DNA from: Schizochytrium sp. TIO01
Taxonomy: Eukaryota > Sar > Bigyra > Thraustochytrida > Thraustochytriidae
Reading direction: 5' to 3'
DNA: 64,000 bases
Assembly: GCA_004764695.1 (NCBI GenBank)
Contig: SMSO01000035.1
Coordinates: forward strand, 2,106,001-2,170,000
Positions 17,558-28,932 of this stretch are shown piece after piece. The notes beneath the pieces are model-generated. The model was not told the DNA's origin. It ran no database searches and worked only from the letters and a program-made list of their open reading frames with translations. Position numbers and translations under genes: made by a program. Within the stretch, counting starts at the first letter, position 1, and each line of letters starts with the position of its first letter.

Positions 17558-20500
17558 TTACTCTTCTTTGTCGGTAGCCTCGGTCTCCTTCTTCTTAGTA
17601 TCCTTACCAAAATCGGGAGAAGGCACCTCAAGGGAACCATGTGGGAACTTCTTAAGGATTGACGCCTTAAGGTCATCTAACAGGGACTGAGAGGCTCCAA
17701 GGCCAGTCAGCTCTTCATGCATATCAGAAAGATCCTGGAAAAAGGCAGACTCCGGGAGATCACCCACTATGGAGGTCAAGGTTTTCTCAGCAGACTCAGC
17801 AACTTGAGCATCAACGCGAATCATCGCTACAGCTGCAGCAACGCGACTCGAGATGGAAGGGCTACCAGAGTTCTCCTTGAAAAAAGCGCTAGCTGCATCA
17901 GAAGGCGACCCATCAATAAGAGGCGCTGCATGAGACTCTACAGCAGTTCTAACAGACTCGGGGATCTCAACACTTTCAGAGATGGCAACGTTGACATCTT
18001 CATCAGAAGTAGACTTTCCAGCCCAAGGGGCATAAGTAACCTTACTGCTTTGCACAAGCTGAATAAACGGAGCGAGACGACTGAATACAGCAGGATTCTT
18101 GGCACCCCCAGGAGCCAAATCAACAGCACAGCACAGAGCACGAAGGGCCTGAAGGTACTTGCCACGGCGCACTTCCACATCAAAGATGCAAAGTTGCGTA
18201 TCAAGACGGGACGGGGCAAACTTGCGAAGAACTTCACAAAGCTTGTGCGCTTCCTCGAGAGGACTATCCGCATATTTTGCGAGAAGCTTAGCCCCCTTGG
18301 GGTCCTCATCAGTCGCAACACGAGAACGCTTGGCCTTGTCCTCGCCTTCATCCTCTCCTTCTTTCTTCTCACCCGACTCTTCCTCTTGCTTACGCTTCGC
18401 CTCCTCTTTACGAGCCTTGGCCTTAGCCTTCTTCTTTTCAGCAGCAGACATGCCAGAGAAACTATCTTCAGAGGATTTCTTAGCACCACCTGAAGAGCCT
18501 TCCTCACCGTCGCCAGACTTGGATGGAGCATCCTTCTTAGCTTTCTCAACAACAGCGGAGTACTTCGCTGGCTTATCATGAAGCTCGAGGAGACAATCAA
18601 TAACGCCCTTAGCCGCACGACCATACGCGGGATGTCCGCGAACATGGTCCTCATAACGAATTGTAGATACATATGCGCGCATTGTAGCCTTGCGCAAGCA
18701 ATACAAGTGGAATTCAAGTTGGTCTTCTTCAAAGTCATCGTAATGCTCAACAATGGCTGCATAGAACTTCAGAGCAAGTTGAAGGTCTCCAATCCTCTTG
18801 AAAGAGCGGGCAATTTCGATTTCAAACCAAACAGCCTGCATCTCTTTGAGGTAGCCACGGCTGTCACCCTCGTGTTTGGTGAAAAGACCAACCACATCTT
18901 CGGCCTTGTCAATCTGACCGGCTCTTAACAGATACTTGGTAGCCTTGGAGTTAATCCACTTGTCTGCAAGGTCGAGTTCCCGGCCCGACTCCATTGCAGC
19001 AGCAGCACCAATAAAATCTCCCATATGCTTGAGGATCCGTGCTTTAACCTGTAAAATTCAACGAACTAGATGTTAGATATCCCTGTCATACAACAAACAT
19101 ACAAATTGTTTTTCATTCAATGCCAACAATGACTTGAAGATCATATCATGGATGTTCACCCAACGAGCAATACCAGCACCAAAGGATCAGCAAACGTTGT
19201 TTTCATGGACGGGTGACCGTAGTCCCAGTCCTCTAAAGGTGTAGAATAGAATTTTTGCCATCATCTCCAACGTTGCTGGTCTTGTTCCATCTTTGAACAA
19301 ACTGATAAACAATAAAGATAAGCTGAGAATTTCAGCAAAATAAAACGAGATGCACTTACTACAAAAAGATCCAACGTGGTCGGCGTGTGCTCAATCGCCC
19401 TCTCAATCGTTGCAAGCGCCTTATCCTGTTATCGATGAAGCCATTGAAAACATGTTAGTACTTCCAAGTTGCTTAACCCAGACACAAACACTAAACCCCT
19501 CCAGCCCAGCCCAGTGCGTAAATGCCATGCTACTGAATGTTAAAAATCCATCAGAATGCTAAAGTTGTTTGCTCCTCAAAGTATTTCAGTACAGGTCTGT
19601 GAATAGTTCTTTCCTCCCGCGGATCTGTCAACAATCTAGCAGCGCACGCCACAGTGCGCATAAACATTTACACACAAGATTAACACCACCTACCCACCTT
19701 CGACCCACTTCCCCAAAACATCTGCGTGTTCTGCACATTGTCATTGTCAAAAGGACCCGTCCATCAGAATGCTAAAGTTGTTTGCTCCTCAAAGAATTTC
19801 AGTACAGGTCTGTGAATAATTTTTTCCTCCCGCGGATAAGAAGCTTAACAGACAATGAGACAGAAAGCAGAACACACAACTACCCAAAACACCCCACCCC
19901 ACCATCACACCAACTGTTGCAGGCACTTCGGTGCCTGCATAGATACTCAGATGACTTACGGACTCCGACATCATGTCATAGTGTTGTGCGAGAAAGAAGA
20001 GAGCCCACAATAACATTGTAGGCGACTCCTTTTCCTTGACAGAATCTCCCTCCAAGGCGGGAAGCTCACTTGTGGCATCCAGTGACTTGACGTAGCCCTC
20101 CACGAGCTCACCAAGAATCTGAACACGTTCCATCGCTTGCTTCTGAATTGACTCTGAAACATCGATGTTGTTACGCAATGCCATTTTATAGATAGGGCGA
20201 AGAGATGAGAAAAGCGAGGGAACGCCCTTTCGCATAGACTGACGAAGAAATCCATCTGCATGTGTGCGAAAAGCCTCACCCTGCAGGTAACCCATGGGGA
20301 TACGACGCACAGAAGTTGGCTTACGCTTCACCGTACCAAATAAATCTTCATACTGCTGCTGTAATGCTGCAATTTGTTCCTCGGAAAGTCTGTAGATTTT
20401 TTAACAGCGTCAAGTTAGTGTTTCGAACCTTGTAAAACCTCAACGTTCGCCAAACCACAGAAGTTGCACACATGTGATACAGTAGACGCTAGATATGACT

Positions 20501-22379
20501 AGATTCTCAGACTGCACCAAAAGATGCGAGTTTCGCTCACCAAGATAACCTGACCCCCGGAGGGTTCTCCCGCGTAATCGCGAGTCCGAGGCAGAGGGCT
20601 ATCCGTATTTGACGATCTGAAGTTTACATCATCGAAAAAATCATATAGGTCTACGGTAAAAAGAGGTGTGCACCATTTTTGGAAACTAAAAAGTTCTGGG
20701 TTTGGCATGCATGGACGGATAAAAATTCACTTACTCCATGGTATCAGCAGGAAGTCTAGAGTTCTCCATCTTACTGACATTCTTCAAACCAAGCGCACAT
20801 GCCTGTAGTTTTGTAAAAAAAATATTAGAAAACGTGTTAGTTCCAACTTGAACAGATCAGAGATAGACAGCATGACATCTTCATATAAGCCCATGTATGT
20901 AAAATCAAAAACTGATATCTATTCGTATGTAGCATGCTCCGTTTCCTCATATCAAGATAGACTGCACGATAAAAAGGAATTTCTAAGAGCGGGCCTTACT
21001 ATCCGCGATACAAAGGCAACTCATATGGTATTTCCCAGAAGGAACCAGAAAGTCGTGGCAGAAAGGATCGCGTTTAAGTTTTTGAGATACTTGCATAAAG
21101 GACTGAAAAAGTTATTCACGCTATAGAGCAACGATTTACTTACCTGCAGGTCACGATGATACATGTAGTTTTCAGGATTGCGCTTAATCAGGAGAGTTAG
21201 AAGCTGACGGGCTTCATCAGAGCGACCAAGAGCGAGAAGAAGCTCAACCTTCTTTTCAAGCCAGGCATTTCGATCTAAAATATCATAGAAGTGACGGTCT
21301 AAGTGGTCAAGAGCAGCCTGCTTATCACCGATCTCTTCAAGAATTTGTAACTTGTACATAAGAATCTCACTCTCTTCGTACGAAGCGTCGCGCTCTGCAG
21401 GAAGCGTGGTGAGGTATTGATCGAGGATTGTGATGGCCATTTTGAGGTTTCCACTGAGATGCTGACCAAGACTGCGAAATGTTTTAACCAATCATGAGGT
21501 AGTATAGTTAGTTTACCGAGTTCAAATCAGGCCATAGAAAAATGACGCATAGACAGTCGGGGAGTGTCACGGCAAGAAAAGTATTGGATGACCGTGCATT
21601 GGGTGATGCGGACGTGAGTGGGGATTACTGATGAAATCTCGCCAGCGACCTTATATGCACTGTGTTCAGAGAACAGTATTGTTGGCTATGTTTTGACTGG
21701 TCCAGAGTGAAAAAGTGCCCTGCAACCAGCTTCGATCAAGCCTATTTAAAACCGTGTTTTGGGATGCCTTTGGACTTTGAGTACAGATTCGTGAAGTAAA
21801 AACACGTTTCCACAAAACATCTAAAGGGTGTGAAAGAGTTGAAATTACGTACCTGTATCCGAGCCAGTTGCTGCGGAGACCGCCTTGTTGACGAACAAGG
21901 TCAAGGCGGCAAGCTGTGAAACCTGGCATATCGCGAATCTGAATCTGAAGAACAGACAGCTCGCGGACGATCTGAAGGTTGTTCGGGTTGAACCTGACAG
22001 CCATCTGGAAACACTTGATGGCTTCCTTGTAGTTTTTGTCGCTACGGTTGATCATTCCGTAGACGTGCCAGCAGACGGCGCTTTTGATGTTGTAGCGCAC
22101 GCCGAGCTTGGCAAGCTCATAGGCCTTGTCCTTCTCGCCCATGCTGTTGTACACGAGGCCCTTCATGGCATTGGTCTCGCCATGTTCGGGAAACTTCTTC
22201 AAGACTGTGTCTGCAGTCTTGATGGCCTTCTTGTACTGCTTGCTCTCCTGAAGTCTGATGAGCTCTTTGAAGAGCCCATCCTCCTTCTTGGGCAAGACCT
22301 GCGTGTTCGCGCCAGCGGCTGCTGGCGCCGCCGGTGCGGCGGCAGGGGCCTTTTTGGCCACCGCTTTCTTCTTGCCCAT
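17558..22379 (-). CDS. NAA15: NAA15-type auxiliary subunit of N-terminal acetyltransferase A (six exons)
   Basis: Exons on the minus strand, in order: 22379-21853, 21471-21144, 20802-20735, 20389-19960, 19425-19360, 19048-17558. All five introns are GT-AG (GTACGT or GTAAGT donors) and phases join cleanly to give 969 residues. The product is a TPR superhelix, and the order of segments follows animal NAA15: exon 1 holds V-C-W-H-V-Y-G and N-W-L-G-Y; exon 2 R-N-P-E-N; exon 4 L-L-W-A-x-x-F-L-A-Q-H-Y-D; exon 6 the Lys/Glu-rich helix with M-S-A-A-E-K-K-K. NAA15 anchors the catalytic NAA10 at the ribosome for cotranslational acetylation of Ala, Ser, Thr, Gly, Val and Cys N-termini. The N-terminus has an added Ala/Pro-rich stretch, and the whole is about 100 residues longer than human NAA15. 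Intron density is far above its neighbours. The call is firm; exact exon edges are my own reading of splice sites. Confidence 0.93.
19549..19624. repeat. 76-bp direct repeat, copy 1, inside NAA15 intron 4
   Basis: Matches 19761-19836 with only a few substitutions. Spacing is 212 bp, and both copies lie inside the same 534-bp intron. Confidence 0.9.
19761..19836. repeat. 76-bp direct repeat, copy 2, inside NAA15 intron 4
   Basis: See the copy at 19549-19624. The two differ at roughly four positions. The sequence between the copies is not duplicated. Confidence 0.9.
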
Positions 22380-22512
22380 TATGGAACTGCTGCCGCCCCG
22401 CCTCTCGCGAATGCCGCTTCCTCGCAACAACGATTGGTCGTTGCGTGAATGGTCGGTCTGCAGTGCTCTGAGAAGCTATCTGCACTCCCTTCGAGTAAGC
22501 GAATTAGCGAAT

Positions 22513-22916: not shown

Positions 22917-23940
22917 AACGACAAAGAGTACAGCTGGCGCAGCGTGTTAAGAGTCACATACGCCCTGCTAAGGTCCCGCGCTATGAGTGGTAGGAAAGCA
23001 TAGGTAACTCATGGATGGATGGATGGATGAGATGAGTCTACCGCCGCATTTAATGGGAGACAAAAAACACGCAGCTCCATCTCGGCGTCAAGCTCGATGC
23101 TCAGGACGGCAGAGCTCAAGAGCTGCTCCTAAAATGCTCCAACTTCGACTGGGTGGACGATGGCCACGATTTGGCCAAGGTTTACGCAGCGCAGCGATTC
23201 TCGGGAGCAATTTGGAGATGAAATCTGAAGATGTTTGCAATCTTGAAATCGCACCTTATTTCCACTGTATGGAGACGCTGATAGGGTTCACTTAGGGTAA
23301 AGTCCTAAGAGGGGGATCCTTAAAACGTCGATGGTCAACGTTAACAAACATAACATTTGCGAAGCAAATGAAAAAACCAACCTGTGCCATTAATTTGGAG
23401 AGCTAGCTGTGCGTTGGAAATCAAGGGCGGAGTGCAGCTATTTTGACCAGGATGTGGCTGCGATAAAGGCATAGGCGTACCAACTCGATCGATATCCATA
23501 TCTGCGAATCCTGCTTTTCAACTATTTTTTTTTTATGATGGTTTTCTTTTGTGGTTTTTATTTCGTTTTTTTTAAAGTTACTTCCGCATTTTCTTTTTTC
23601 CTTTTCTCTCGGAGGCCGAAATGTCCCATCCGCCTTAAATAGTATAGCTGCAGTGCATATGATACCAGTGTGTTTAAGGTGCTATAAATTACTAAGCTGG
23701 AGCGGCGATACCTAACGAGGTTAGGGACATAGAAAAAGGGCGCAAACAAGCGCCGAAAGTGGTTTGGGGGGGAGGGAAAAAACAGCAATGTTCGCGAAGA
23801 AGTGAAAGGTGATGTTAGCAGATAGTAATAGATAATGTGCTAGGTAATGAAGTGAAGTAGTGCTCTTTTAGGTTGTATAGTTGAAGGTCGATCTCTTAGA
23901 TTTTAAACTACAAAATTTGCAAAACTTGCATTTCATAGAA

Positions 23941-24010
23941 GGAGCTAAGACTCCATCACGGACTAGTTAGACTAACCCGCGACTCAATGAAATGATTTTT
24001 TTTAAATCAT
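23941..24010 (-). ncRNA. Hairpin-bearing 3' flank of the Fanzor gene, candidate guide (omega/f) RNA region
   Basis: Three short inverted repeats are visible: GGAG/CTCC at 23941-23954, GTTAG/CTAAC at 23966-23976, and ATGATTT/AAATCAT at 23992-24010, which overlaps the nuclease stop codon. In IS605/IS607 TnpB and Fanzor systems the guide-RNA scaffold spans the 3' end of the nuclease gene and the adjoining element end. Position and structure fit, but stems this short also arise by chance in AT-rich DNA. The element end and guide start cannot be fixed from one copy. Confidence 0.3.
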
Positions 24011-25798
24011 GTCCTTGGATAGGTAGCGTAAAAGGATGCCTCTTGCGGCATGGACATCACGGTCTGCTACATGGTTGCACTTGGGATTAGGGCATTGGAA
24101 AACCTTGGATGCCCCGAGTTTATGGTGGAGGGTACCGCACTCATTGCATGTTTTTGAAGTGTAGCTCTCTTGGCAAAGAACAAGCTTGCACCACGGGAAC
24201 ATCTCAGCCTTATGAATGAGAGCCTGGCGGAACCCAAAATGGGACCAACGACACATCATTCGAACAGACTTCTTGGATATCCGTCGCTCCATCCTCCTGC
24301 TCATCTTAGAGGTTTCGAATTTAGGCAAGAGAATAACACGATAGTTTTCACAAAGCCAAAGCGCGAGCTTGCGGTGAATCTCAGTGATCTTGTTCTTGAT
24401 CTTGAGTTGGGCGCGATAGAAGGCGCGCTTCAAGGGGGTGTTGAAATCGTATGCAGTTTTCTTTTTATTTTCTTGAGCTTTATCAATCCTGCTTTGGATC
24501 TTATCAACGCGGCGACAGAGATAGAATATGGTTCTAAAATCTTTCCCTGTGCCCCATTCAATGGCGCGGCCATCAGCATCATACATCGTCTGAAACGAGC
24601 GAACACCTGGATCTAGAGCAATGACACTGTGGTGCGCCTTGGGTGCCTGGTCCATTGGACGCTTTTCTTCTTCTCGTAAGAAGCAGAAGTACACATGCCC
24701 AAGGCGATTCATTTGCACACGCATGGCGTTCTTAATCTGACTGGGGAACTTTTCTTTACGTGTTCGGAATTCTTTTAGAAAGTTGGAGGTCTTTGATTTC
24801 TTCGCATTCCAGGTACGTGCATTCACTTCGAAAATCTGTGATTCATCACGCTTGGTCCGAAACTTATAAAAAGATTGCTCATGGACTTTCTTTTGTACAG
24901 CGAGTTCTTCGTTTTTGGCTCGTCCAGAGTTAAGAGCCTTGAAGAAATCCAGAATCCCGGAATCACGGATAGCCTGTGGGACCTCGAGAACCCATTCAGG
25001 AGCATCATGCCTTTCTTTAGATCGAACGGCTTTCTTTTCTCCATAGAGGGCACCATACGTTTGGGGATTCCCATCTTCATCTACTAAAACCTGCTTCGTC
25101 TTGGAATCCTTTTTGATGCACGCTTCTTGATGCAATTTGATGGCTTCTTCCTCGCCCTTCGCCACGTCTCGGTGAAACGCAACGCCAGTATTGTAGGCTC
25201 TTCTAGTGACACCAAACCATTTAAGCAACTGTGTACGCTGATCTTTAGTAGGGTATACCCTGACCTTTTTGGCACGGACAAGGTCATATTCTTTCTTGAT
25301 GGTCTTGCGCGCCTTCGTGCGAGCTCGCTTCTTCCTCGCTGCGTCGTCGCCGTCTATTTTGCGCTGCTCGTTTTCCGTGATGCGATGCCACAAAGACGGT
25401 GATGATTCCGAGGAGGTCTTTGGTGAAGGTGTCTGCGTCTCCGGCATGTGCATCTTGGCCGTGTACCACGATTTTGACATTTTTTCTTTCGAAAAGGTGT
25501 TCCAGGAGGTCGACTGCGATTCGCGCAAGTCGGTCGCGGTGCATGACCACAACTTGGCCGATTCCGCCGCGGTCACAGGCGTCCAGTAGGGAGCACAGGC
25601 CTTGGCGTTTGAAATTGACCCCGCTACCGATGTCTTTGTAGACGGCGGAAGCATCTGGGTAGGCGCGCTGGAGATCGCCAACCTGGCGTTCGAGGTCCTC
25701 CTTTTGCTTGGCCGAGGACACTCTGGCGTAGATAACGGTACATCCAGAGCTGCGTTGCTCGCGGCCGGTGGAACCGCAATCAAAGATGCGCTCAACAT
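24002..25798 (-). CDS. TnpB/Fanzor RNA-guided nuclease (IS607-associated, Fanzor2-like)
   Basis: 598 residues from the first in-frame ATG at 25798. Residues 1 to about 150 come from the overlap with TnpA and look unstructured; the family domain starts near residue 175 (K-K-V-R-V-Y-P-T). Before it lies a basic cluster K-K-R-A-R-T-K-A-R-K that could serve as a nuclear localisation signal. The RuvC centre looks complete: D396 in A-L-D-P-G-V-R, E495 in L-P-K-F-E, and the third Asp in A-D-R-D-V-H-A-A (about 579-581). The zinc ribbon is intact, with C551, C554, C569 and C574. The D-P-G-V-R-S-F-Q-T form is, to my recollection, typical of IS607 copies in protists and giant viruses. Fanzor proteins cut DNA guided by an RNA made from the element's 3' end. 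There is no stop, frameshift or lost catalytic residue, so this copy could be active. Real initiation may instead be at an internal Met (about 25447-25480). Confidence 0.88.
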   Translation of the reverse strand: MLSASLIAVPPAASNAALDVPLSTPECPRPSKRRTSNARLAISSAPTQMLPPSTKTSVAGSISNAKACAPYWTPVTAAESAKLWSCTATDLRESQSTSWNTFSKEKMSKSWYTAKMHMPETQTPSPKTSSESSPSLWHRITENEQRKIDGDDAARKKRARTKARKTIKKEYDLVRAKKVRVYPTKDQRTQLLKWFGVTRRAYNTGVAFHRDVAKGEEEAIKLHQEACIKKDSKTKQVLVDEDGNPQTYGALYGEKKAVRSKERHDAPEWVLEVPQAIRDSGILDFFKALNSGRAKNEELAVQKKVHEQSFYKFRTKRDESQIFEVNARTWNAKKSKTSNFLKEFRTRKEKFPSQIKNAMRVQMNRLGHVYFCFLREEEKRPMDQAPKAHHSVIALDPGVRSFQTMYDADGRAIEWGTGKDFRTIFYLCRRVDKIQSRIDKAQENKKKTAYDFNTPLKRAFYRAQLKIKNKITEIHRKLALWLCENYRVILLPKFETSKMSRRMERRISKKSVRMMCRWSHFGFRQALIHKAEMFPWCKLVLCQESYTSKTCNECGTLHHKLGASKVFQCPNPKCNHVADRDVHAARGILLRYLSKDMI

Positions 25799-25865
25799 CG
25801 TCGCAGGCTGCACAGATTGAACAATGAGACTTGTGATTTGCAGGTTTTTTTACAGGTGAGATCAA
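25284..25865 (-). CDS. IS607-type serine recombinase (TnpA), no in-frame ATG before the catalytic domain
   Basis: The frame is open from a TAG near 25905 to the stop at 25284. The span given begins at a TTG, which is not a normal eukaryotic start. The catalytic domain is well preserved: V-I-Y-A-R-V-S-S-A-K-Q with nucleophile Ser encoded near 25718, G-S-G-V-N-F-K-R, and H-R-D-R-L-A-R with the active-site arginines. Bacterial IS607 TnpA begins with a MerR-type helix-turn-helix. Here that region is missing and replaced by a short Cys-rich stretch (C-x2-C-x2-C, then D-C-G-S). Either the first exon lies upstream beyond an intron (AG sites exist near the 5' edge), or this is a 5'-truncated copy. 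The last part of the frame overlaps the nuclease frame for over 500 bp. Confidence 0.75.
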   Translation of the reverse strand: MISPVKKPANHKSHCSICAACDDVERIFDCGSTGREQRSSGCTVIYARVSSAKQKEDLERQVGDLQRAYPDASAVYKDIGSGVNFKRQGLCSLLDACDRGGIGQVVVMHRDRLARIAVDLLEHLFERKNVKIVVHGQDAHAGDADTFTKDLLGIITVFVASHHGKRAAQNRRRRRSEEEASSHEGAQDHQERI

Positions 25866-25905
25866 CGTTCGTTTGATGTTAGGTTGAGATGCACAAGACT
25901 ATAAT

Positions 25906-26331: not shown

Positions 26332-28932
26332 TCACATAATGCAGCAAGCCACCTGTGACTGACGACCATTGTCAGCATGATTGGCCTCAAAGTCAACTTG
26401 GCATCCAACGAGCTCCTCAAACAAAGTCTCGGAGCGCACGTACTCTAAAGCTTTGAAAGAGGCACGGTGATGCTCATCAGTAAGCATTGCTGATTTACGT
26501 TTTTCTTTCTTTGTCGGTTCACCACCATCATAATCATTTGGCTGGAACTCTGCATTGACCGTAGTCGAACTGGGAATAAATGGTGGAACAATATGACGTT
26601 TCTCTAGTTTATCCCAATCGATGCCATCAAAGAAGGGATGCTCCATAATCTCCCTGACACCACGTGTACCGCACCCAAGTCGGGCTTCCGGATCATGGTG
26701 TAATAATTTGTGCACAAGATCTTGTGCTTCGTAGGTGAGACCGACGATGGGCTTTTCAGCTCTACCCGGCTCCTTTAAACGACGATGTAATTCGTTACGA
26801 TTTCTCTCCGCGCATTGTAATGCTGACTCAGACCACCGTACTTTACCAAGAACCATATTTCTTAACAACGTGCGATGAGACCGCTTTGGGCCACGAGTGA
26901 AAGGCATCCTTCCTAAGCAATAAAATTGGTGCAAAATCACCCCGAGTGCAAACCAATCTACAGAAACACCATAGTTAGGATAACGGGGCAAGCGATCTGG
27001 GTCTGCGGAGAGCCTTCGAACAGAGTTTTCAGTGTCTTCCAAGCGTCCGAGTCCATCGACATTCTCCCCACCATCATCGTTTTCATTATCACCATTGAGC
27101 AATGGAACTACAGGAATATTTGGCGACTTAAAGCTAGCTTGGAGCTGGTTAGCATTTCCACCAATTGCTACATTTGGTGATAATGGTGAGGCAATATAAC
27201 CTGGAGAGGTTGGCGAAGGTGAGCCCGGTGAACCTGGGCTCAGTAATGGGTTAACTGGGGAGAATGTCTCAACAGGTTGATTCTCTGGAGGTGGGAACAC
27301 CTTATTAGTGTCCACACGCAGAAATTGTCGAGTTGTCTTGTCACTCTGAACGTCAAGCATATTTGCGGTTGCCCGCATGTTGTTATTTGTATCTCCTAAT
27401 GAGGCTGTTCCTCCAGCTTTCCTTCGAGTTGTATTCGTAGTTTCAACTTTTGAAGAATTTGCTGCACCTCGTGCAAGTTGCGCGTTACTAGGGTCAAAAG
27501 CATCAACTCGTGCGGACTTAGAGGTGAGTGCTCGGAGAGATGATTGGAACGTTGAAAGCCAAGTTGTTCTTCGCGTTGTGCTGCTGCGTTTTTTAACCTC
27601 CGTCGGTCTCCTTCGGTCCCAACAGGGACCGAGATACATCTCTGGCGCAATGTAACCTGGAGTACCACAACACTGGTCATGACGAAGATCTTGTGCTGAT
27701 TCAGCAGTGACACTAAGACCAAAGTCACTGATAACAACATAGCCACTAGTGTCTAAAAGACAATTACTTGGTTTGAGATCTCGATGAATGATATGTTTGG
27801 AATGTAGATATCCGATACCCAACACAAGGCACGCCATCCAAAATTGTGCTACCTCGTGAGGGACTACTGGCATACGTCGTAAATGGAATTTGAGTTCTCC
27901 ACCTGGAAGAATATCAAGCAAAAAGTAGATATTTACATCATCTTGAAAAACTTGATGAACCCTTGCTACGAATGGGTAATCAACTTTTCGTAGAATGGTA
28001 GCTTCAGCCACAACTGTATTAAGTCGTTTCTTCGTAATAATGCGAACTTTATTCATTTCTTTCAAGGCCCATACAGCGTTTGTATCACTGTGCATCGCAA
28101 TGAAATTCAGTATTCGCCCATTTTGCAGATGAGCATGTATGCAGACGTATGTTCATTAGGTCAAATTTATCCCACAAATACATTTCACGTTAGCTTTTGC
28201 TTCCCTCCTATCCAAAATCTAACCTTACCATATCTTACAGAGGCGTGGTTAAACTCCCCTCGAAATATACGAAATGCTTCGGTTTTCTGCCACCTTATCA
28301 TCAACTTACACTACTCGAACGGCATGAACTTTGCCGAAACCTCCCTCGCCAAGCAAACGAAGACGTTCAAAATCACGCATTACACGGGGTTTCAAGGCGT
28401 AATTCTCGAAACTCGCCAGTGCATAGCCATACGGCCCATCAATAAAACTTCCAACGTGATCGTTCAGACGATCGAGAAGATATGCCATAACCATTTTCAA
28501 AGAGTTCGGGATTTTAGATACTATACCGGCGTTAATGAAGCCAGCAATATCCTGGTCAAGCTGAGTAACTGACTCGGCCCCTTCATCGCCAACGAAGTAT
28601 GGTTTGCCTGGTGTTAAATAAGTGAGTCCAATATGTCGCAAATAAGATAACAACTTAATGCCAGGTGGAATTGCCTGCGCTTGATCGCAATCTTCGTAAC
28701 AGAGAAGTAGCTGCAAAAGATTTTCATCACGAAGGTACCTCCAGAACAGAGATCGTTTGACCCCACTGGAAAGAATAGCGTCAGCTTTGAGGTTGGTGCG
28801 GAATCGTGCGAGCAGGTTCTGAAGATTTGAATAGGTCAGCTGCCGCTTGGTTTTGTGCACAGCAAACTTGGATATTGCACATTGTGCATCAAGAAAGCGT
28901 TGATCCTCCACAACTTGGTTGAGAATATTCAT
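26332..28932 (-). CDS. GRK-like AGC protein kinase: RGS-like N-terminus, kinase with large insert, CaaX end
   Basis: Two exons, 28932-28310 and 28087-26332, with a 222-bp intron (GTAAGT...CAG) inside the ATP-binding lobe; they join in frame to 792 residues. The ATG at 28932 is chosen; the frame runs on only to a TTG. Residues about 55-175 resemble an RGS-homology domain. Kinase: G-E-G-G-F-G (195-200), Ala-Leu-Lys with K216, H-R-D-L-K-P-S-N (309-316), D-F-G (329-331), C-G-T-P-G-Y-I-A-P-E. After A-P-E comes an insert of about 220 disordered residues (about 363-583), then the rest of the C-lobe and an AGC tail. The protein ends C-C-I-M, a CaaX box predicted to be prenylated, as in GRK1/GRK7. All catalytic residues are present. 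GRKs phosphorylate activated GPCRs at membranes; the RGS-kinase order plus lipid anchor supports that class. Confidence 0.88.

Follow-up and report, generated by a model that had tools for sequence, protein, structure and literature searches.

We analyzed a stretch of 64,000 nucleotides (nt), hereafter the window, from the thraustochytrid Schizochytrium sp. TIO01 (contig SMSO01000035.1, positions 2,106,001 to 2,170,000 of the forward strand), in which a Fanzor nuclease gene overlaps the serine recombinase gene (tnpA) of an IS607-type element. The copy in the window is TnpA-dead and 5'-truncated; it belongs to a young Fanzor2/IS607 family with multiple copies. In the related pro-Fanzor elements, the nuclease frame is kept open through tnpA far beyond chance, unlike in the 14 ordinary IS607 genes compared. 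Several elements with a broken tnpA retain the peptide encoded by this overlap. The explanation that best accounts for the whole, and which we regard as likely, combines a truncated, TnpA-dead copy with translation of Fanzor and pro-Fanzor proteins from a +1-frame start codon that would be placed in, or close to, the 5' portion of tnpA; an N-terminal extension of ~100 to 200 residues would thereby be encoded out of frame within tnpA, and may be translated and functional. It also seems likely that the entire pro-Fanzor/Fanzor2 lineage is a nested gene pair, in which TnpB starts just inside tnpA (+1) and its 100-200-residue extension overprints the recombinase. In the window, the overlapping frames are arranged as follows:

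24002..25798, minus strand: Fanzor2 open reading frame (ORF), 598 residues, stop-free; ATG conserved in 16/16 copies
24002..25480, minus strand: shorter alternative Fanzor ORF, 492 residues (MSKSWYTAKM...); ATG in 16/16 copies
25284..25808, minus strand: what is left of tnpA, encoding the catalytic domain of the serine recombinase, including YARVSS; the start of tnpA and the N-terminal DNA-binding domain are gone
25284..25798, minus strand: stretch open in both the tnpA and the Fanzor (+1) frames; in the latter it encodes PYW..SWY, the motifs of the extension

The +1 frame is open through tnpA in pro-Fanzor elements

In the window family, the Fanzor frame lies at +1 to tnpA and, in full-length copies, meets no stop along the entire tnpA gene; the same open +1 frame was found in a Microcoleus phage and in the IMG/VR viral contig L035 (loci carry three-digit L numbers). 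Of 114 confirmed genome loci, 80 were covered. The +1 relation was present in 49 of the 52 loci with both frames (no tnpA frame was found in 31 further loci, and six lacked a DPG frame), and in 47 of these 49 the tnpB frame was open from before the tnpA catalytic motif.

Expected stop numbers were obtained by shuffling synonymous codons within each gene, and near copies of L035 (L034, L036-L039) were left out of the stop, start, tnpA-break and synonymous divergence (dS) counts. In 35 pro-Fanzor tnpA genes (ATG-started tnpA ORFs of at least 150 residues), 14 stops were observed in the +1 frame versus 149 expected, compared to 469 versus 495 in the +2 frame, while flanking ORFs and tnpB, used as controls, gave +1 stop ratios of 1.02-1.12. 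The remaining +1 stops were confined to the first 61 nt of tnpA in the genes listed. Across the catalytic part of tnpA, evaluated in 42 pro-Fanzor genes with at least 100 codons of it, not a single +1 stop was observed versus 135.7 expected. In contrast, the tnpA genes of 14 ordinary IS607 elements carried 128 +1 stops versus 139.6 expected in the catalytic part, and 170 versus 180.8 over the whole gene. These control loci, from bacteria and archaea and including one of cyanobacterial origin, were picked for variety among 60 listed of 234 records; a fifteenth locus (L166, beside a pro-Fanzor) had no tnpA frame and was not counted. The tnpA genes are related and hence no independent draws, but the same applies to the controls, whose behaviour differs. 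Moreover, with starts assigned by rule, 30 of 33 pro-Fanzor elements, as opposed to 2 of 14 ordinary ones, had a +1 ATG no more than 40 nt from the tnpA start; in 28 of the 33 this ATG lay downstream of the last +1 stop present in the first 200 nt.

A +1 ribosomal frameshift fusing TnpA to TnpB/Fanzor, which would leave TnpB without a start of its own, could account for the constant +1 relation and for a frame open through the catalytic part in 42/42 genes. However, a frameshift near the tnpA 3' end would need no open frame across the whole of tnpA; the +1 ATG near the tnpA start likewise argues against it, as does the long TnpB frame kept where tnpA is broken, and we consider such a fusion improbable.

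The out-of-frame peptide is kept in several elements where tnpA is broken

The tnpA frame carries stops and the peptide is kept in L033, L046, L056, L061, L063, L069, L078, L095, L096 and others; the underlying list of tnpA breaks comprises 25 rows, several of which were flagged by a filter only and not by stops. In L033, a giant-virus contig, the tnpA frame is full of stops and SPYW..NSWF is retained, scoring 15.3 bits against 8.4 for the best of 640 shuffles. For the extension, the ratio of non-synonymous to synonymous change (w) was 0.34 and 0.40 in two pairs with broken tnpA. W72 and W111 are invariant in 46 aligned proteins, and the TnpB-like protein L79 (PDB 9b0l) has NSWY at the place matching SWF/SWY of the extension. 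Among pairs with a tnpB dS between 0.03 and 1.2, tnpA dS was below tnpB dS in 10/10 non-overlapping pairs (ratios 0.12-0.83); the 41 elements of this comparison are no test of the +1 relation itself, because they were chosen to have it.

The shared PYW..SWF peptide was rejected as proof of translation, since the +1 shadows of ordinary tnpA genes score nearly as high; similarity of +1 peptides alone proves little, because conserved tnpA residues produce part of it as a shadow in the +1 frame.

Taken together, the missing +1 stops, the early +1 ATGs and the peptide kept alongside a broken tnpA suggest that Fanzor2-type proteins are probably extended at the N-terminus by a segment that lies out of frame within tnpA and whose translation we infer from sequence. 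The disordered N-terminal segments of 96 and 61 residues described for two Fanzor2 proteins in the available part of PMC10432273 fit such an extension.

Selection and divergence within the window family

Fanzor is under purifying selection in the window family, one of the options that the preliminary description had offered for an intact pair: over the Fanzor codons beyond tnpA, w was 0.40 in 15 copies and 0.43 in the five copies with a tnpA stop (L015 excluded). Mean divergence among 13 copies was 0.060 in the non-coding left end, 0.026 over tnpA codons 1-60 and 0.012-0.015 over codons 60-232, and then, part by part along Fanzor, 0.067, 0.052, 0.046 and 0.023. Third positions varied at 9/167 sites in tnpA codons 66-232 versus 70/427 in Fanzor-only codons (p = 2.4e-4), and a separate Fisher test likewise indicated synonymous constraint (p = 1.9e-4).

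These data bear on two further explanations. First, Fanzor may start at the late ATG (window 25480), the open frame upstream being a relic or an accident of codon usage. This ATG is present in 16/16 copies, and upstream of it the +1-frame w of the window family is ~0.9, which also speaks against a constrained extension. A late start nonetheless leaves unexplained the 0 versus 135.7 stops in relatives next to near-normal counts in controls, as well as the small divergence in tnpA codons 60-232, which have more variable sequence on either side, and we regard it as unlikely. Second, this may be an ordinary Fanzor2/IS607 family whose low tnpA divergence results from gene conversion between copies. 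The right ends of some copies indeed group differently from the remainder of the element; that of L006 resembles those of L010 and L014, unlike the remainder of L006, which hints at exchange between subfamilies. However, gene conversion within one genome explains neither the missing stops in cyanobacteria and phages nor why tnpA is nearly invariant when the non-coding left end next to it is variable, and we give this explanation little credence.

Several additional observations weigh against a translated extension common to the lineage. Regarding the frame, 5/33 elements lack a +1 ATG within 40 nt after the last early stop; the Arthrospira tnpA fragments L071, L076 and L090, which are short, look frame-shifted and fell outside the later counts by length, carry 3-5 +1 stops, about chance level; tnpB is in another frame in L082, L099 and L105, begins only after the catalytic motif in L048 and L076, and runs into ordinary tnpA sequence in L072. 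Regarding the peptide, a third tnpA-dead pair gave a w of 0.77, PYW..SWF was absent by motif search in 16 rows of the tnpA-break list (some of them short), and with a hidden Markov model of the extension, ordinary tnpA shadows scored up to 37 bits, compared to 39 for the window and 15 for L033. Regarding constraint, the step at tnpA codon 65 alone was non-significant (8/65 versus 9/167, p = 0.09), and the dS control on ordinary IS607 elements was weak, with few usable pairs, two of which pointed in the same direction (third positions 0.227 versus 0.302; 4/118 versus 20.5/269).

The element in the window

The extent of the window copy was determined as follows:

23893..25808, minus strand: 5'-truncated IS607-Fanzor2 element (blastn and alignment with 15 other copies)
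23893: right end of the element, ..CTAAGAG on the minus strand (right-end junction list)
25808: truncation point, inside tnpA (alignment with 15 other copies)

According to the 16-copy alignment, the complete element measures ~2.2 kb, and the window copy is short by ~290 bp at its left, lacking the left end of the element, the tnpA start and the N-terminal DNA-binding domain, a domain of IS607 TnpA that is presumably MerR-like. The region of this domain is found in full-length copies and not in the window copy, and reading three frames by eye upstream of the tnpA remnant revealed no N-terminal domain. The window copy is thus a truncated derivative of the IS607 family that cannot make a whole TnpA. 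The remnant matches the NCBIfam IS607 transposase profile (NF033518) at 125.9 bits (cut-off 110), covering profile positions 40-187 only; we take the serine of YARVSS to be the catalytic one.

The preliminary description had reported an intact pair at 24002..25905, with a recombinase of preserved active site. Of this, the Fanzor frame at 24002-25798 and an IS607-type catalytic domain with YARVSS, overlapping Fanzor, stand, whereas the recombinase is incomplete, lacking its start and N-terminal domain, and the pair is not intact; the element reaches beyond that range, to 23893, and breaks off at 25808. Its stop-free TnpB/Fanzor frame with three RuvC acidic motifs and four zinc-ribbon cysteines was borne out on the minus strand at 24002-25798, and the basic patch is present as a basic stretch, with a putative role as nuclear localization signal. 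The start codon of the 598-residue frame was picked by conservation and homologues; a third ATG, between those at 25798 and 25480, is likewise present in 16/16 copies. The signature residues are encoded as follows:

24611..24613, minus strand: RuvC-I aspartate codon, D396 of DPG (D396-P397-G398); listed as invariant in 46 aligned proteins
24167..24169, minus strand: alternative RuvC-II glutamate codon, E544 (E544-x6-C551); invariant in 46 proteins
24077..24148, minus strand: zinc ribbon C551..C554..C569..C574, second pair CX4C
24056..24058, minus strand: RuvC-III aspartate codon, D581 of RD (R580-D581); invariant in 46 proteins

The frame thus has DPG in RuvC-I, a glutamate six residues ahead of the first zinc CxxC, and a C4 zinc finger followed by RD, as in Fanzor2. 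In profile searches, which the preliminary description had proposed, it matched Pfam TNB above the cut-off (50.6 versus 26.3 bits) and NCBIfam guided_TnpB below it (92.5 versus 100). The best solved relative of the window protein is L79, which we take to be a mimivirus protein; it scored 192 bits with a 46-row profile made of the window protein and 45 of 66 listed frames. In the accessible text of PMC10711439, DPG and the alternative RuvC-II glutamate mark Fanzors and pro-Fanzors, while the window protein does not fit the stricter search pattern given there (two CxxC), its second zinc pair being CX4C. The window Fanzor is a putative RNA-guided DNA cutter.

Domestication of the window copy, with Fanzor kept for host use, would agree with a 598-residue frame that is open although the left end and tnpA start are gone, and with truncation only 10 bp ahead of the conserved ATG. 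The protein is 99% identical to those of full-length copies, hence too young to show selection of its own, and we judge domestication very improbable.

Neighbours on the same strand as the element are a protein kinase frame (window 26332-28095) ending in CCIM, a possible lipid anchor, and frames for tetratricopeptide repeat (TPR) and NatA auxiliary subunit proteins (window 19789-22430).

Copies of the family in the host genome

A protein search detected at least 102 matching pieces in the 64-Mb, 37-contig assembly, 14 of those listed being full-length, stop-free frames; the window frame is thus more than a chance opening. Five copies at other sites are 97-99% identical to the window copy, so that the recent activity previously suggested holds for the family. 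Both genes are whole in 8 of the 16 aligned copies (L002-L005, L007-L009, L012). A tnpA stop just ahead of the late Fanzor ATG is common to L006, L010, L011, L013, L014 and L015, and the dispersed copies L010, L011, L014, L015 and L137 share a 295-bp insertion that carries CCTAA repeats and sits within the 5' part of tnpA (read as sequence in the first four, placed by the gap in L137); no GT..AG fitted by eye, and a spliced intron was rejected. As they are found at different sites, tnpA-dead copies have multiplied, presumably with TnpA supplied by other copies. Copies that multiply with a dead tnpA while Fanzor stays under selection offer a natural system for studying what Fanzor does for its element.

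Many relics in the same genome match the window tnpA over ~residues 20-99 only, as though short elements with internal deletions had spread.

Element ends and right-end RNA

The non-coding right end is a candidate guide-RNA scaffold:

23893..24001, minus strand: non-coding right end, candidate guide-RNA scaffold with hairpins in the minimum-energy fold

The consensus fold contains a possible closing stem (UCUUAG/CUAAGA), and 23893-24030 folds better than shuffles (z = -3.28). In a 19-copy alignment of right ends most pairs are kept, with two-sided change in only 1/40, and no Rfam match was obtained for the right end. We take the fold as no more than a hint of RNA-guided DNA cleavage.

Right ends terminate in AG in 19 of 22 copies and in TG in the other three, which are older, followed in all 22 by A or T; CAG precedes the left end in 15 of 18 copies, as judged by eye. 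In the available portion of PMC10711439, IS607 crossover takes place where dinucleotides match (GG in the elements of that paper), and the AG/TG ends are in line with this. By analogy with TnpB/IS607 work, TnpA of complete copies would excise the element and insert it at AG dinucleotides, and Fanzor, guided by the right-end RNA, would cut the empty site, repair of which would restore the element.

Some junctions are unexpected for a serine recombinase. The decayed copy L017 (C33:4613432-4617385) carries an identical 13-bp stretch, AGAAGAAACAAAT, at its two junctions; in L002, L010 and L013, 4-5 bp are common to both. In the left ends of L002-L018 and L137, the 3-9 bases just inside the junction vary among similar copies, like captured flank. 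Target-primed copying, considered in view of the variable left ends, was set aside, as the other incomplete copies noticed (L015 and L137) lack 3' and not 5' sequence.

Phylogeny and origin

In a 55-row tree, which covered no eukaryotic Fanzor2 collection, cyanobacterial and phage pro-Fanzors form a clade (99/92) that does not contain the window family, and placement among bacterial sequences, named beforehand as the outcome speaking against a nuclear element, was not observed. The window family is sister to L033, with weak support (81/51) and a long branch. L033 (IMGVR_UViG_3300013105_000001) is a 175-kb viral contig with a TFIIB-like protein, recognized by eye, and a Fanzor2 of 483 residues; no open tnpA was found beside it.

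The same assembly contains a major capsid gene of nucleocytoplasmic large DNA viruses (NCLDV; PF04451, 107 bits, 433-residue open frame) at G000:C9:26919-27449, and a large DNA virus therefore is or was associated with the sample or host. None of the at least 102 Fanzor matches, among those listed, lies on this 125,453-base contig. The transfer through a large DNA virus suggested earlier may have taken place; the weakly supported sister position of L033, its long branch and the capsid contig with no listed match are the observations that bear on it. Searches of viral contigs with the window protein or an L79 fragment as single sequences returned nothing, while an alignment query did find matches. 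Screening for light-harvesting protein families gave no match. Of two labyrinthulid primers compared with the 18S sequence, one fits exactly and the other has two mismatches.

Bacterial contamination of the assembly would agree with nearest named sequences that are nearly all cyanobacterial, although the query alignment was biased towards these. The listed matches, many of which are decayed, are distributed over large contigs of the 64-Mb assembly, the window neighbours include eukaryotic-type genes, and the tree keeps the window family apart from cyanobacteria at 99/92; contamination can practically be dismissed. In agreement with the original assignment to a eukaryotic genome, kinase, TPR and N-acetyltransferase-subunit matches lie near the element.

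Comparison with known systems

Coding regions of IS607 elements overlap or are separate in six bacterial species (PMC9956272), and orfB can overlap tnpA in orientation (PMC7290912), the extent and frame not being part of either passage; PMC11844463 describes overlapping sequences at the right end, and the overlap passages of PMC10432273 concern guide RNA. Titles and abstract openings announced no nested tnpA/tnpB pair, in a search largely outside subscription papers. The main text of PMC10711439, without supplements, does not contain "overlap", "frameshift", "reading frame" or "N-terminal", and "overlap" is absent from the main texts of PMC3627910 and PMC11423790, supplements aside. Short tnpA/tnpB overlaps are thus already known, and a nested overlap was not found in the literature searched.

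Fanzors form the eukaryotic branch of TnpB/Cas12 and are under study for genome editing. If the nested arrangement is true, Fanzor2 N-terminal extensions would be overprinted sequence kept after tnpA loss, and the nuclease would be physically tied to its transposase, such that losing one without harming the other would be rare. If the Fanzor N-terminal region begins inside tnpA, database entries may be too short and constructs may miss a conserved part (the Trichormus RefSeq TnpB has 402 residues versus an open frame of 578 codons), and tnpA can be missed beside TnpB, being unannotated in the Microcoleus phage and Trichormus plasmid records. A nested pair in the lineage that crossed into eukaryotes would be a testable clue to why that lineage crossed.

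Ordinary IS607 elements with a canonical TnpB (14 plasmid loci) likewise have a serine recombinase with TnpB downstream; their tnpA/tnpB overlap is at most 50 nt or none in 11 annotated loci, and +1 stops are near chance level. Cyanobacterial pro-Fanzor TnpB shares the RuvC signature and the IS607 partner, as far as described in the accessible part of PMC10711439, and in our analysis also the +1 frame open through tnpA; the window family lies outside this clade (99/92) and is 27-33% identical over the full alignment. Compared by sequence alignment, L79 (PDB 9b0l) has NSWY in place of SWF/SWY. Fanzor2 of eukaryotic IS607-like elements, which the available text of Bao and Jurka 2013 (PMC3627910) and Yoon et al. 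2023 (PMC10711439) reports for stramenopiles and large DNA viruses, shares DPG in RuvC-I, the alternative RuvC-II glutamate, the C4 zinc ribbon and an IS607 serine recombinase partner; no inverted repeats were seen. The window protein differs in its second zinc pair, CX4C instead of CX2C, and in an N-terminal extension that would be read from inside tnpA, a feature unmentioned in the available text of these two papers.

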